DNA of 64,000 bases from Nitrospira sp. (GTDB lineage Bacteria > Nitrospirota > Nitrospiria > Nitrospirales > Nitrospiraceae). Below, in pieces: positions 1 through 19,765 of the stretch (its first letter is position 1; each line of letters begins with the position of its first letter). The stretch is from positions 1 to 64,000 of the forward strand of contig JACOEM010000002.1 of assembly GCA_024998565.1 (NCBI GenBank), read 5' to 3'. The position numbers were made by a program, and so were the translations under genes. Under the pieces are notes generated by a model, which did not search any database, was not told the origin of the DNA, and worked only from the letters and a program-made list of their open reading frames with translations.

Positions 1-54
1 CAGGTCGAAGAGCCGATCTATATTCGGCCGGCCGAGCGCGTGAACTGGCTGTAA
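1..54 (+). CDS. C-terminal end of an unidentified protein (partial)
   Basis: The first 17 codons of the window read open in frame 1 and end at a TAA. The peptide ends in PAERVNWL. The gene starts upstream of the window. Too little is visible for a function. A 9-bp inverted repeat (65-73 with 96-104) follows the stop, but it has a 22-base loop and no T tract, so I do not call it a terminator. Confidence 0.4.
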   Translation, partial: QVEEPIYIRPAERVNWL

Positions 55-290: not shown

Positions 291-950
291 GTGATGAATT
301 TCAGAGGACGATTCATAGGCGTGCTTGCCGTGGCCCTAGCGGCGTTGGCCGCGGTGTTCTTCGGCCATCTGTTTCTCTTCGAGCAATGGCGGGTTCAGCA
401 GGAGCGGCAGCTCCACCGTTCCAAAATTCTGGGCAACGTGGCGCACTTGCAACGGTTGGTCTTGGAGGTGGAAACGAACTTTCGCGGCTATGTGCTCACG
501 GAGCAGCAGTCGTTTCTCGAACCGATCCGGCTGGCGGAAAATCGGCTGAAAACAGGACTGGCTCAATTGACTGATTTGACCGCCGGCACTCCGGGTTTGC
601 AGGCCGGAGTGGGCGTGCTGTCGGCGCGTCTCGATGAATTCGTGGAGAGCAAGCAGAGATTGCTCGCGGTCATCGGAGCGGAACAGCAGGACCTCGTGCG
701 CTCATATGTGCGGGGAGGGAGTGGGCGGGCGCTGTTCCTGACCATCGAAAAAGCCATCGGAGATTTTGAGGTACGCATTGAGCGCGAACTGCCGAGTGAA
801 CCCATGACCTATGACTCGTGGCTGCAAGGTGCGCGCTGGCAGTTGTTGTTGGTGGAAAGTCTGGGCGTCATGGTGTGTGTCTTCCTGACGAGAGCGGTGC
901 TTCTTCCGAATAGGACAGTCTTGGCGCCGAACCCTCGACCTCTTCTGTGA
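291..950 (+). CDS. CHASE3-like membrane sensor protein without output domain
   Basis: A 219-residue protein with a hydrophobic helix at about residues 8-30, a long helical region, and a second hydrophobic segment near 183-205. The outer part, with VETNFRGYVLTEQ and later helices rich in Leu, Glu and Arg, resembles CHASE3 sensory domains, which sit in the periplasm of many histidine kinases. No kinase, GGDEF or HAMP domain follows; the protein stops soon after the second membrane segment. It could pass a signal to a separate partner or be a shortened receptor. The start is either GTG at 291 or ATG at 294, which differ by one residue. Family assignment is by resemblance only. Confidence 0.6.
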   Translation: MMNFRGRFIGVLAVALAALAAVFFGHLFLFEQWRVQQERQLHRSKILGNVAHLQRLVLEVETNFRGYVLTEQQSFLEPIRLAENRLKTGLAQLTDLTAGTPGLQAGVGVLSARLDEFVESKQRLLAVIGAEQQDLVRSYVRGGSGRALFLTIEKAIGDFEVRIERELPSEPMTYDSWLQGARWQLLLVESLGVMVCVFLTRAVLLPNRTVLAPNPRPLL

Positions 951-1032: not shown

Positions 1033-1058
1033 ATTCGCACTGTGCGTAGCGTGCGAAT
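1033..1058. promoter_or_regulatory. Palindrome ATTCGCAC-N10-GTGCGAAT, putative enhancer-binding site
   Basis: A perfect 8-bp inverted repeat with a 10-base spacer. It lies about 97 bases upstream of the transcription start predicted from the sigma-54 element at 1116-1131. The palindrome at 2292-2319 has the same GCAC-N10-GTGC core. The placement fits an activator site for a sigma-54 enhancer-binding protein (inference). Confidence 0.6.
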
Positions 1059-1115
1059 TCGCTCGATTTGAGGCCGTGGAACACTGAAAACCATTGGAAT
1101 TCCGTTCATGAGCAA

Positions 1116-1131
1116 TGGCATGTGCCTTGCT
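1116..1131 (+). promoter_or_regulatory. Sigma-54 (RpoN) -24/-12 promoter
   Basis: The 16 bases TGGCATGTGCCTTGCT match the consensus TGGCACG-N4-TTGCW at every position except one, with GG and GC separated by exactly 10 bases. Transcription would start near 1142, leaving a leader of about 38 bases before the small gene at 1180. Confidence 0.8.
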
Positions 1132-1179
1132 TTGAATACGTTCATCACAGTGAACGGGTACGAAACAAGGAGTCAGCCC

Positions 1180-1281
1180 ATGGTACGGATGATCAAGAAA
1201 GTCGGAGATCGGGAGTTGGCCTGGGTGATGTTGGCGATTGCCGCGGTCGCTCTCTGGAGCACCTGGGGGTTGGCGAGCTAA
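1180..1281 (+). CDS. 33-residue single-pass membrane protein under sigma-54 control
   Basis: A short open frame of 33 codons starts at ATG 1180 behind an AAGGAG site at 1167-1172. A basic N-terminus (MVRMIKKVGDRE) is followed by one hydrophobic stretch from about residue 13 to the end (LAWVMLAIAAVALWSTWGLA). This fits a single membrane helix with the N-terminus inside. The sigma-54 promoter, the ribosome site and the membrane segment together make it a credible gene although it is tiny. Its last four bases overlap the end of the convergent DUF488 gene. Function unknown; it could be a small regulator of a membrane complex. Confidence 0.7.
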   Translation: MVRMIKKVGDRELAWVMLAIAAVALWSTWGLAS

Positions 1282-1640
1282 ACGCGATTCTTCGCACTGT
1301 CGATGCATTCCTTCAGGACCACGGCCTGATTATGTTCCTTGTCTGATGCCCCATAGAGCAGTGTGACGGTCTGCGCTTGGGCGAGCCGGGCGAGATCTTC
1401 GATCGCGCGGTTCTGTTCCGGTCGGCTCAGTTCCTTGCGGTAACGTGCCCGAAATTCCATCCACTTTGCCGGGTCATGACGGAACCATGTGCGGAGTGCC
1501 GTGCTGGGAGCCAGTTCCTTTCGCCAGGCATCGAGACGCGCCTGTTCTTTCGTACATCCCCGCGGCCATATCCGGTCGACCAGAATCCGAATCCCATCGT
1601 GCGCGCTTGGTGTGTCGTAGACCCGTTTGATTCGAATCAT
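1278..1640 (-). CDS. DUF488 family protein (YeaO-like)
   Basis: A 120-residue protein with the DUF488 signatures VYDTPSAHDGIRILVDRIWPRG near the start, WFRHDPAKWMEF in the middle and VTLLYGASDKEHNQA near the end. The length is typical of the YeaO-like branch. The biochemical role of the family is not settled. It lies 27 bases after the CBS-domain gene on the same strand, so the two are probably co-transcribed from the sigma-54 element at 2209-2224. Confidence 0.85.
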   Translation of the reverse strand: MIRIKRVYDTPSAHDGIRILVDRIWPRGCTKEQARLDAWRKELAPSTALRTWFRHDPAKWMEFRARYRKELSRPEQNRAIEDLARLAQAQTVTLLYGASDKEHNQAVVLKECIDSAKNRV

Positions 1641-1667
1641 GATTGCATCGCAACAAGCCGCGCGCAG

Positions 1668-2093
1668 CTACTCTTCGATGCCTACGGCAAGACCGATTGA
1701 TGCACGGAGCAGGTCGTGCCTGGTCACCGAATAGGTCACCTCTCCGTTCTCCTCGACAGGGAGGTTCAGCAAGTGGTTGTCTGCCATGAGCTTGATCGCG
1801 TCCGGTATCGGTGTCGATTTACGGACGGCAATGGGATGTCCGGCCATCAGTTCTGTCGCCGTCAGACTATTCAAGTCCTTTCCTGCCTCAAGGGCCTTGA
1901 GGATATCAAATTCGCTGATGAATCCCACATAGCGGCCCTGTTCATCCAACACCGGTCCGCCGGACACATGCGCGGAAAGCATCTCGATGGTGATCGCCAT
2001 GCCGTCCTGTGCGGTATGGAATTGTATCGTATTGGTTCCAACGATTTGTCCGACGGTTTTGAAACCTTCAGCTGGAATTCCTGCGCGACTCAT
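1668..2093 (-). CDS. Two-CBS-domain protein
   Basis: A 141-residue protein made of a CBS pair. The first repeat includes MLSAHVSGGPVLDEQGRYVGFISEFDIL and the second MADNHLLNLPVEENGEVTYSVTRHDLL. CBS pairs bind adenine nucleotides and act as energy or redox sensors; no enzyme domain is attached here. I chose ATG 2093 because it has GGAAGGAG five bases upstream; an in-frame start at 2123 lacks this. It is the first gene of a likely two-gene operon with DUF488, read from a sigma-54 promoter about 105 bases upstream, which suggests induction by stress or nutrient change (inference). Confidence 0.85.
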   Translation of the reverse strand: MSRAGIPAEGFKTVGQIVGTNTIQFHTAQDGMAITIEMLSAHVSGGPVLDEQGRYVGFISEFDILKALEAGKDLNSLTATELMAGHPIAVRKSTPIPDAIKLMADNHLLNLPVEENGEVTYSVTRHDLLRASIGLAVGIEE

Positions 2094-2208
2094 GATGTCT
2101 CCTTCCGATGCGGCAACAGCCATCGAGGGGGCGAAACGTGTCGCAGGCCGATGACCTGTGGTCCGCGCTGTTCCTACGAACTGCTGATCGTCCCTTGTGC
2201 ATCAACTC

Positions 2209-2224
2209 AGCAAGCGAAGTGCCT
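2209..2224 (-). promoter_or_regulatory. Sigma-54 -24/-12 promoter for the CBS/DUF488 operon
   Basis: On the minus strand the bases read AGGCACTTCGCTTGCT: GGCAC, then TTGCT, with 10 bases between GG and GC. Predicted start of transcription is near 2198. Confidence 0.7.
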
Positions 2225-2291
2225 GTCTGGATGGGTTGCGATTCCCTGAATTCCTGCGCCGTTACAAGCGATGATCCTGCGGGTGCGAGCG

Positions 2292-2319
2292 ATTCCGCAC
2301 GGGGCGGACAGTGCGGAAT
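2292..2319. promoter_or_regulatory. Palindrome ATTCCGCAC-N10-GTGCGGAAT between two divergent sigma-54 promoters
   Basis: A perfect 9-bp inverted repeat with a 10-base spacer. It is centred about 107 bases upstream of the leftward and about 129 bases upstream of the rightward predicted transcription start. One activator dimer or hexamer bound here could serve both promoters. The core matches the palindrome at 1033-1058. Confidence 0.6.
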
Positions 2320-2407
2320 GTCCCGATAAAGAACAACTGGTTGCGGAGTCAGCATGCCGTAACAGTACTGAATGAGGGATTTCGTTCGCTGCATGGGTGC
2401 TTCCAAC

Positions 2408-2423
2408 AGGATCGCATATTGCA
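2408..2423 (+). promoter_or_regulatory. Probable sigma-54 promoter for the rightward small-gene cluster
   Basis: AGGATCGCATATTGCA keeps the GG and TTGC elements with the correct 10-base spacing, but departs from the consensus at two positions of the -24 box. Transcription would start near 2434, and the first gene begins at 2493. Confidence 0.5.
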
Positions 2424-2492: not shown

Positions 2493-2756
2493 ATGGACCC
2501 TCAGGTTGTTTCTCGGGGCGATGGCGCCATCGACGAGCAGATTCTTGGTTTGCTGCAGCACCACCGGCGGCTGACCTTTCTCACCCTGGCCGAATCTTTT
2601 CCATTGTACACCTGGCAGGCATTGTTTGCGGCGTTGAGCAGGCTCCGCGGGCAACGACATGTGGACTTGTTACCGCTCGCTGCAGATTACGAAGTGGTCT
2701 GGCAGCAGGGGAGAGAATGCCCGTCCCTGATGTCCGACGGGCCTGCCAGGGCGTGA
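2493..2756 (+). CDS. Small helix-turn-helix-like protein
   Basis: An 87-residue protein starting at ATG 2493 behind a GGAGGT site. The middle (DEQILGLLQHHRRLTFLTLAE, then TWQALFAALSRLRGQRHVDLLPL) has the helix spacing of a small winged helix-turn-helix domain followed by a short beta wing. No second domain is present. It could be a DNA-binding regulator, but no specific family is recognised. It opens a run of four small rightward genes that ends at the MITE-like element. Confidence 0.6.
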   Translation: MDPQVVSRGDGAIDEQILGLLQHHRRLTFLTLAESFPLYTWQALFAALSRLRGQRHVDLLPLAADYEVVWQQGRECPSLMSDGPARA

Positions 2757-2816: not shown

Positions 2817-3050
2817 ATGTCCTGCAGTCGATGTCAGGGCCTGATGGTAGCCGAAAATCCATTCAATCCCAGCGAAGGAGTGTCGCATACGTGGGTGTCG
2901 GTGACGCGCTGCCTCAATTGCGGCAACTTGGAGGACTCGTTGATCCGACTGGCGCGACGCCTTCCCGAGCAACTTCATCGAAGCGTTCGTCCTGGTCCGC
3001 GACGAAGAGGTGTATGGATTCACACGTTATGGAGGCCGGAACGAGACTAA
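2817..3050 (+). CDS. Small zinc-ribbon protein
   Basis: A 77-residue protein starting behind AGGAGG at ATG 2817. The pairs CSRCQG at residues 3-8 and CLNCGN at about 32-37 form a four-cysteine zinc ribbon. The tail is Arg/Pro-rich and looks less well conserved; a frame slip in that part of the gene cannot be excluded, because the +2 frame also stays open there. It lies 60 bases after the helix-turn-helix-like gene and is probably in the same transcript. Function unknown. Confidence 0.6.
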   Translation: MSCSRCQGLMVAENPFNPSEGVSHTWVSVTRCLNCGNLEDSLIRLARRLPEQLHRSVRPGPRRRGVWIHTLWRPERD

Positions 3051-3141: not shown

Positions 3142-3582
3142 ATGGAGGGGTACGGAAAACGTGTGCTGGTTGCGGAGGACGAAGAGAGTGTGCGGCATCT
3201 GCTGACCCTGGTGCTCGAAGCAGCCGGCTATACCGTACATGGAGCGGAAGATGGCATGGAAGCTCTGGCCGAAATGAAGAAGCGGCGTTTCGATGCGGTG
3301 GTCGCGGATTACCGCATGCCCCGCCTGGATGGGGAGCAGTTCCTGCTGCTGAGTCGCCTGATGTGGCCTCAGACTCCGACCGTGCTCCTGTCCGCCGAGC
3401 ATACGGATTTGCCCGTGATCCTGAAAATGCAAGGCGCCTGTGCTCTCGTGCCGAAACCCTTCGATTCGCAGGGGCTACTACAGACGCTACAGGCTGCCGT
3501 CGAGGCGGCCTGTAGTTGCTGCTCCCCGAGTTCGACCCTGCGTGAGGGGACGAATACCCCCCTCTCAGTATCGCCCTCCTAG
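3142..3582 (+). CDS. Single-domain response regulator (REC)
   Basis: A 146-residue CheY-like receiver domain starting behind GGAGGT. The acidic pair is at E12/D13, the phospho-acceptor is D56 in VVADYRMP, the switch Ser is in VLLSAEH near residue 84, and the conserved Lys is in VPKPFD near 108. A short Ser/Cys-rich tail follows and there is no DNA-binding domain. No histidine kinase is encoded nearby. It would act by protein contact with a partner. Position in the sigma-54 cluster suggests a role in stress signalling (inference). Confidence 0.9.
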   Translation: MEGYGKRVLVAEDEESVRHLLTLVLEAAGYTVHGAEDGMEALAEMKKRRFDAVVADYRMPRLDGEQFLLLSRLMWPQTPTVLLSAEHTDLPVILKMQGACALVPKPFDSQGLLQTLQAAVEAACSCCSPSSTLREGTNTPLSVSPS

Positions 3583-3714: not shown

Positions 3715-3960
3715 ATGAAGAAAAAGACGGCGCCGAAGAAGGCCGCCTCGCGTCCGGCGAAACGGACGACGTCAGTGGCGAAAGAAACCAATGTTCCCGG
3801 GACGGTCCAGGATATCCAGGTACGGATTGCGGCACGGGCGCATGAACTGTATGAACAACGGGGTTGTTTGGATGGTTACCACCTGCATGACTGGCTGGAA
3901 GCAGAGCGGGAAATCCTGGGACACCCGGTGGTGATGGATAAGTCCTCAGAGCGGATCTGA
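3715..3960 (+). CDS. DUF2934 protein with basic N-terminal tail
   Basis: An 81-residue protein. The second half (IAARAHELYEQRGCLDGYHLHDWLEAEREI) is a clear DUF2934 domain, a short helical module common in Nitrospira and in soil proteobacteria. The first 25 residues are Lys/Arg/Ala-rich (MKKKTAPKKAASRPAKR), like a histone tail, and could bind nucleic acid. The stop codon directly abuts the MITE-like element that follows, so the element may have inserted just behind the gene. Function unknown. Confidence 0.8.
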   Translation: MKKKTAPKKAASRPAKRTTSVAKETNVPGTVQDIQVRIAARAHELYEQRGCLDGYHLHDWLEAEREILGHPVVMDKSSERI

Positions 3961-18814: not shown

Positions 18815-19765
18815 ATGGGTAATGATTCTGGGAGGAAGGCATTTGCTTTTAGGCTTGGCCATAGGCTTATCAGTTCCTTGAAGAACGACATCTTAGGTTT
18901 GGGCTGGTGCAGGGCCGAGCATCTGGATAAGGAAAAAGATTGGCAAAAATTTAAGGAGATTGTCAGAGCTGCTTATCCTGAGGAGTACAGCGTTGGAGAA
19001 AGAGCTTTGGGGAATGCCGCGGGAAGTCTTTGGAGGTTTATTTATGGCATGAAAGTGGAAGACTACGTCATAGTGCCTTCTGACGAAGGATTTTATGTTG
19101 CTGAGGTTAAAGGAGACCCTTTCTATGATGCCGCAGGATGTGATGATGATTTTGCATGGCGGCGCAGGGTGAAATGGCTGACCAAAGTCCCAGTATCTCG
19201 CACCTTCGCAAGCAATGCACTTCAGATGCGTCTTAAAGCCAGGCAAACTTGCGTAGACGCCACTGATTTGATTTCAGATATTGAAGAAGCCTTAAAGCGA
19301 GAGAAGCCTATCAATTTTACTCAGACTGTCATCGAGAGCTCATATGAGCCAGTGGCGAAGGCGTTGCAAACGGCCATTAATAATTATGGATTGGAGGACA
19401 TAGTAAAGCGGCTTGCAATGGCAGGTGGCGCACGGGCCGATATCCAACCAAAACAGTCCAGACTGCCTGGAGATGTCGACGTTGTCGCGTCCTACAATTT
19501 GAGCATTGGGTGGAATCAAGAGTCGGTCGTTAAAGTGGCTTACCAAGCGAAACAGCATGAAGGGATATCCGATGAGTATGGTGTAAAACAGATAATCGAT
19601 CGGATGCAATCAGACCCCTCATTTGTTCGAGGCTGTTTTATTACCACAGCTCCCACTATTACTGATGAAGCCAGAAAACTAGCGGACAAACATAACATTA
19701 TCGTTATGACGCAAAAAGATTTAGTTGAGTGGGTTATGATGGTTGGGTTAGGTGCTTTACGGTAA
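18815..19765 (+). CDS. Mrr-type restriction endonuclease (COG4127-like)
   Basis: A 316-residue protein. The C-terminal Mrr catalytic domain shows the PD-(D/E)xK variant: GDVDVV with D222 and YQAKQHEG with Q244 and K246, followed by FITTAPTITDEARKLADKHNIIVMTQKDLVEWV. The N-terminal domain (IYGMKVEDYVIVPSDEGFYVAEVKGD) is like that of predicted Mrr-superfamily restriction proteins. It likely cuts modified foreign DNA. The gene is visibly richer in A and T than its neighbours, with AT-ending codons, a sign of recent transfer. GGAGG stands before ATG 18815. No methyltransferase lies nearby, which fits a type IV enzyme. Confidence 0.8.
   Translation: MGNDSGRKAFAFRLGHRLISSLKNDILGLGWCRAEHLDKEKDWQKFKEIVRAAYPEEYSVGERALGNAAGSLWRFIYGMKVEDYVIVPSDEGFYVAEVKGDPFYDAAGCDDDFAWRRRVKWLTKVPVSRTFASNALQMRLKARQTCVDATDLISDIEEALKREKPINFTQTVIESSYEPVAKALQTAINNYGLEDIVKRLAMAGGARADIQPKQSRLPGDVDVVASYNLSIGWNQESVVKVAYQAKQHEGISDEYGVKQIIDRMQSDPSFVRGCFITTAPTITDEARKLADKHNIIVMTQKDLVEWVMMVGLGALR

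Follow-up and report, generated by a model that had tools for sequence, protein, structure and literature searches.

A predicted, oriented sigma-54 activator element beside nxrB in the nitrite oxidoreductase island of Nitrospira and its candidate reader

The window analysed here is a stretch of 64,000 nucleotides that starts with the last codons of nxrB, and its source is a Nitrospira close to Ca. N. defluvii. A preliminary description had picked out two palindromes and three -24/-12 strings near this end, arranged like the sites and promoters of an enhancer-binding protein (EBP). The question raised by the locus is whether the palindromes are genuine sigma-54 activator sites and, if they are, which protein would read them. 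In sigma-54 regulons of the NtrC, ZraR and AtoC kind, -24/-12 promoters are served from an upstream site about 80-150 bp away, with helical phasing, by a receiver-AAA-Fis HTH activator that has a partner kinase. The NifA site is TGT-N10-ACA.

Sigma-54-dependent and NifA-like regulators were noted beside nxrAB of Nitrospira in the available parts of two papers (Mundinger 2019, PMC6606698; PMC7522533), both of which point to Lucker 2010 and Koch 2015. These parts give no binding site, target promoter or regulon for the nxr-linked sigma-54 regulators. The element that we describe below does not appear in them, nor in the available parts of PMC12542776, PMC5596200, PMC12516955, PMC12342949, PMC7291052 and PMC3162934.

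The palindromes, the promoter strings and the longer element

Both palindromes were found where the preliminary description had placed them, ATTCGCAC-N10-GTGCGAAT at 1033-1058 and ATTCCGCAC-N10-GTGCGGAAT within 2292-2319, as were the three -24/-12 strings (Table 1). The distances in the table run from the palindrome centre to the C of the -12 GC; with about 12 bp added to reach the predicted start, they reproduce the 97, 107 and 129 bases given before. As evidence alone, the -24/-12 strings were rejected because their count in the window is at chance level (10 found with up to 2 mismatches against 10.46 expected, the third string, with 3 mismatches, falling outside this count). The core GCAC-N10-GTGC occurs 3 times in the window against 1.2 expected, and the third site, at 1702, is unrelated to the system.

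In the whole genome (4.13 Mb), CGCAC-N10-GTGCG was found in 6 places and its reversed control in 1. TYCGCAC-N10-GTGCGRA matched without mismatch in 2 places, both of them the window sites, and with up to 2 mismatches in 68 places against 49 for the control, indicating that the loose matches are mostly chance; the palindrome alone was therefore rejected as a genome-wide mark for this genome. The combined pattern GCACN{9,10}GTGCN{58,88}GGYAYN5TTGC occurs exactly twice, both times in the window, with 0 in the control. These are the two palindrome-promoter pairs of the genome, to which one N9 variant is added at the place where nirC begins in relatives. Across 175 family genomes, 124 pairs were found in 71 genomes against 20 in reversed controls, and in the genus alone 57 against 3, although counts across related genomes are not independent. 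The claim that the palindrome stands 80-150 bases upstream of sigma-54 promoters thus holds as an enrichment in the family, but the palindrome is no general regulon mark in the genome of the window itself.

The alignment of these pairs revealed more than the palindrome. CGCTC, which was absent from the search pattern that yielded the 124 pairs, recurs with no more than 1 mismatch at a constant position outside the palindrome in 105 of them, where chance would give about 2.2% each, and the 19 pairs without it are about equal in number to the controls. In a base table of 89 distinct N10 elements, for which CGCTC was required at up to 1 mismatch and the inner GTGCG was left free, both were nearly as invariant as the searched bases. 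Because CGCTC and the inner GTGCG are conserved beyond the searched palindrome, the predicted site is an oriented 29-bp element of four half-sites, CGCAC-N-GTGCG-N4-GTGCG-NANTCGCTC, read towards the promoter. The palindrome of the preliminary description is real, but it is only a fragment of this longer, asymmetric element.

With up to 3 mismatches, the full element occurs exactly 2 times in the genome of the window, both in the window (control 0), and 117 times in 29 genus genomes against 0 controls, a few places that match on both strands being counted twice; a first genus scan allowing mismatches had already revealed additional sites. The distance to the promoter is also restricted. Among the 89 distinct elements it is 82.5-87.5 bp in 45 and 93.5-99.5 bp in 42, with none at 88-93 bp and 2 beyond, so that the clusters near 85 and 95 bp are one helical turn apart, whereas the 19 matches without CGCTC have no distance phase. 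Beyond the searched spacing range, pairs were seen at 116-118, 128-130 and 138-152 bp, and these are weaker evidence because their promoters were accepted at up to 3 mismatches.

Genes and predicted promoters around the elements

Table 1. Features at the start of the window
Feature	Position	Strand	Remarks
nxrB 3' end (nitrite oxidoreductase beta subunit, ...QVEEPIYIRPAERVNWL*)	1..54	+	Contig start; C-terminus same as that of N. defluvii (G001) nxrB
CHASE3-domain protein, no kinase part	291..950	+	Pfam CHASE3 2.3e-19
Element 1, CGCACTGTGCGTAGCGTGCGAATTCGCTC	1036..1064	+	0 mismatches to family element; points to tiny gene; shares most of palindrome 1033-1058
Predicted -24/-12 sigma-54 promoter of tiny gene, TGGCATGTGCCTTGCT	1116..1131	+	84.5 bp from palindrome centre; conserved
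33-aa single-helix membrane protein (tiny gene)	1180..1281	+	Shine-Dalgarno AAGGAG
DUF488 protein (DUF488-N3i subclade)	1278..1640	-	Pfam 1.9e-38; second gene after promoter 2
CBS-domain protein	1668..2093	-	Pfam CBS 7e-17; Shine-Dalgarno AAGGAG
Predicted -24/-12 sigma-54 promoter of CBS/DUF488 (promoter 2), AGGCACTTCGCTTGCT	2209..2224	-	95.5 bp from palindrome centre
Element 2, CGCACTGTCCGCCCCGTGCGGAATCGCTC	2287..2315	-	1 mismatch to family element; points to CBS/DUF488; overlaps palindrome 2292-2319
Weaker predicted -24/-12 promoter, AGGATCGCATATTGCA	2408..2423	+	116.5 bp from palindrome centre; divergent from CBS promoter; precedes 2493 ORF
87-aa ORF	2493..2756	+	Orthologues in relatives; weak helix-turn-helix resemblance, below Pfam cut-off
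77-aa ORF with CxxC pairs	2817..3050	+	No accepted family
Stand-alone response-regulator receiver protein	3142..3582	+	Pfam Response_reg 1.5e-19
DUF2934 protein	3715..3960	+	Pfam 2.7e-12

The setting of the locus can be read from the closest named relative, Ca. Nitrospira defluvii (FP929003.1; G001). Its gene order is CBS/DUF488, tiny gene, CHASE3 protein, nxrB, nxrA and EBP2 (NifA-like), then a membrane fusion protein, an outer-membrane efflux protein, an MFS transporter and nirC, and then a divergent CHASE3-HAMP-PAS kinase with EBP3, further genes, EBP1 and a second nxrA. Three enhancer-binding proteins are thus encoded in the nxr island, and the genome of the window encodes RpoN (PF04552, E 1.6e-56, G000:C4). 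On this sequence evidence, we regard the locus as belonging to a predicted EBP/sigma-54 regulon that has the nitrite oxidoreductase island at its centre. Draft contigs of several relatives break near the locus, as the contig of the window does at position 1, probably because nearly identical nxrAB copies break the assemblies.

The nxrA copies have upstream regions of their own. Copy 2, beside EBP2, is preceded by a -24/-12 string of its own, TGGCATGTGAGGTGCA in N. defluvii, and by inverted repeats resembling CCACGA-N4-TCGTGG (L147:7086 (-), L150, L153), which are probably a second, separate activator site. The roughly 485 bp between EBP1 and nxrA copy 1 (L130 and other EBP1 loci) contain a conserved segment that includes CGGCACGTGAATTGTA, which is -24/-12-like with GT for GC, and GAGCGAATGTCCGCTC. 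Directly before nxrA copy 1, neither a sigma-54 promoter nor an element was found at the thresholds used among the 23 of 26 EBP1 loci in which the EBP1 end and an nxrA start could both be located (no EBP1 end in L136, no recognised nxrA start in L127 and L140), the one exception being a 3-mismatch string in L143.

Of the 29 genus genomes, 25 carry the gene of the 33-aa protein, and in the family as a whole 36 of 175 do. All 25 copies in the genus have the palindrome and the promoter upstream, 84.5 bp apart in 24 of them and 83.5 bp apart in G009; these distances come from the window and 20 relatives and, for G002, G023, G024 and G026, from a pattern search. Outside the genus, 10 of 11 copies keep the pair at 83.5-85.5 bp; G034 has the tiny gene and EBP3, yet no recognisable element upstream of the tiny gene. 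The protein has no Pfam match and no convincing PDB match (best E 0.033), and nine residues are invariant among its 15 variants (G9, R11, E12, A14, W15, L18, A19, W26 and G30).

Element 2 is kept in relatives, and so is the CBS/DUF488 promoter, at 94-100 bp from the palindrome; relatives also served to assign the start of the CBS-domain protein (MSRAGIPAEGF...). In G028, which has neither nxrAB copy 2 nor EBP2 at the locus, the CBS promoter is deleted and both elements and the tiny gene are retained. The 2408 promoter has 3 mismatches to the search consensus, and RGGAYCRYATWTTGCA is found there in the window and in 8 of 8 aligned relatives, a conservation that supports a third predicted pair, weaker than the first two. 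To judge from its position, the DUF2934 gene would lie on the 2408 transcript.

EBP3 as candidate reader and the alternatives

We consider it likely that a sigma-54 enhancer-binding protein has its upstream activator sites here, with the palindromes as their cores and the three -24/-12 strings as its target promoters, and that the protein reading these sites is, before any other candidate, EBP3. EBP3 consists of a receiver (PF00072, 8.9e-27), an AAA+ domain (PF00158, 5.2e-68) and a Fis-type HTH (PF02954, HTH_8, 1.3e-08), and its sequence carries GETGTGK (Walker A) and GAFTGA. The adjoining kinase gene encodes CHASE3, HAMP, PAS, HisKA and HATPase_c domains, and in relatives the pair is divergent from nirC within the nxr island. 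In many family genomes (e.g. G106, G115, G158) a second, shorter EBP3 homologue lies beside the two, about 54-63% identical over about 390-410 aa, with the match ending before the HTH of EBP3.

The distribution of EBP3 follows that of the tiny gene and of the element. EBP3 was found in all 25 tiny-positive genus genomes (23 whole; fragments in G002 and G009) against 1 of 4 tiny-negative ones (p 0.001). Outside the genus, the 11 tiny-positive genomes all have it, against 53 of 135 others (p 7e-5), so that it accompanies the tiny protein in 36 of 36 family genomes. It was present in 56 of 59 full-element genomes against 34 of 116 others (p 4e-18), and outside the genus in 31 of 34 against 33 of 112 (p 1.5e-10), all these p values being inflated by the relatedness of the genomes. 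When a full element shares its contig with EBP3, it lies within 20 kb of EBP3 in 42 of 52 cases. Three full-element genomes (G049, G109, G154) have no EBP3 match at the cut-off used, and 34 of 90 EBP3-bearing genomes lack a full-element pair within the range of spacings searched. Eight EBP3 genomes without a full pair were inspected; looser elements, at 2-3 mismatches, occur close to the same operon in G034, G052, G056 and G127, and none was found near it in G045, G050, G115 and G147.

Elements also accompany nirC and the operon of EBP3 itself. The interval separating nirC from the kinase in relatives contains an element whose spacer is 9 bases long, at a distance of 141-146 bp from the promoter of nirC, and the corresponding place of the genome of the window, located where nirC begins in relatives, has an element at G000:C17:19426-19448 and a promoter starting at 19564. 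The same interval holds an N10 element at 94.5 bp in G074 and G102 and an N9 element at 129 bp in G039. In G131 and G035, the genes of the kinase and EBP3 are preceded by an element and a promoter at 94.5 bp; in G035 a 158-aa ORF intervenes. G042 has them at 94.5 bp before EBP3, the kinase presumably lying in the gap, masked by an opposite-strand ORF, and G046 has a similar arrangement at 103.5 bp with the kinase likewise masked in the ORF list. An element before EBP3's own operon in three or four genomes suggests apparent autoregulation. Other element targets in relatives are a universal stress protein, a small secreted protein that matches no Pfam family, and a solute-binding protein whose gene is divergent from that of an AcrB-type efflux pump. 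The operon upstream of EBP1 is another, as is a protein that by eye is like the MFS transporter encoded in the nirC operon and whose fragment had no Pfam hit. Their common theme is membrane, transport and stress.

Each of the other two activators of the island could read the element by the same sigma-54 mechanism. EBP1, a receiver-AAA-HTH protein whose gene lies about 485 bp before the other nxrA copy, was the first candidate, because some genus genomes have a palindrome ahead of its operon, and was demoted to a rival by the family profile. It belongs to the same island and occurs in 25 of 29 genus genomes, 10 of its 26 loci have the palindrome (up to 2 mismatches) 0.8-1.2 kb upstream, and inside the genus linkage alone leaves EBP3 and EBP1 unseparated. 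However, EBP1 is present in 23 of the 25 tiny-positive genus genomes (missing in G009 and G024, which are fragmented assemblies) and in two tiny-negative ones; outside the genus it was found in 3 of the 11 tiny-positive genomes and in 9 of the 34 with the full element. When it shares a contig with the element there, the two are 0.5-1.0 Mb apart in G047, G054, G091 and G131 and near each other only in G046. EBP1 is therefore an unlikely reader. We regard EBP2, a NifA-like GAF-AAA-HTH protein directly upstream of nxrA copy 2, or another activator elsewhere, as quite improbable in this role. EBP2 does neighbour the locus in N. defluvii, G020 and G004, and the element has the N10 spacer of the NifA site, but the promoter beside EBP2 has a different inverted repeat, CCACGA-N4-TCGTGG or near, and no element (by eye, three genomes), and the G028 island retains its elements without EBP2 and nxrAB at the locus.

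Two further readings dispense with an activator. Palindromes are common operators, and the element might bind a repressor or other factor, its place before the -24/-12 strings being incidental; this is very hard to reconcile with the fixed spacing of 84.5 bp shared by 24 of the 25 copies in the genus, the helical phasing, the gene-ward orientation and the joint enrichment with the promoter, and we give it very little credence. That the strings were simply matched by eye in GC-rich intergenic DNA agrees with their unremarkable number in the window, but the full element (117 against 0 in the genus) and the pair (124 against 20 in the family) leave this reading with practically no probability. 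For the first two pairs it is refuted by their conservation in relatives, which places these predicted pairs far beyond chance. The geometry of enhancer-binding-protein sites, as first described, is thus borne out by the excess over reversed controls, the helical clustering and the strict conservation at the tiny-protein promoter, and EBP3 remains the likeliest reader.

Proposed regulation of the nitrite oxidoreductase island

In the mechanism that we propose with EBP3 as the reader, the kinase would sense a signal outside the membrane, which may be nitrite, another reactive nitrogen species or envelope stress, and would phosphorylate EBP3. EBP3 would then assemble on the element, and DNA looping over 84, 95 or 116 bp would bring it to the sigma-54 polymerase, which would be opened. 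The predicted targets beside nxrB are the genes of the tiny membrane protein, CBS/DUF488 and the divergent small regulators, and a further one would be the operon of the nitrite channel NirC. The CHASE3 protein at 291-950 resembles the sensor half of the EBP3-partner kinase (32% over 106 aa, E 5e-16) and could compete for, or share, the signal of that kinase.

Compared with regulons of the NtrC, ZraR and AtoC kind, the system is alike in its -24/-12 promoters with GG/GC at the standard spacing, in the site at about 80-150 bp, in the phasing, in the kinase-paired activator and in the apparent autoregulation in some genomes; it is unlike them in the new four-half-site sequence, the fixed orientation, the nitrite oxidoreductase island and the CHASE3-PAS kinase. 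NifA and NtrC sites share with the element the inverted half-sites, and NifA sites its N10 spacer, whereas the half-sites of the element are CGCAC/GTGCG with an inner GTGCG and an outer CGCTC, and its base table does not fit the NifA consensus. The nxr-linked regulators in the available parts of PMC6606698 and PMC7522533 lie in the same island; compared with these, the present analysis adds the element, the targets next to nxrB and, as the best candidate reader, the kinase-paired EBP3 by nirC.

A bolder proposal, which we hold tentatively and consider rather doubtful, is that one CHASE3-PAS kinase/EBP3 pair ties nitrite entry through NirC to the nxr island and, at the same time, that the controlled 33-aa protein is an unrecognised small partner of the nitrite-oxidising or respiratory complex.

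Nitrospira are major nitrite oxidisers that are genetically hard to handle. For the regulation of nxr in these bacteria, the analysis supplies a precise predicted site with the promoters and genes that it would control, proposes an activator and the kinase paired with it, and brings out a 33-aa membrane protein that is conserved across 36 of the 175 family genomes.
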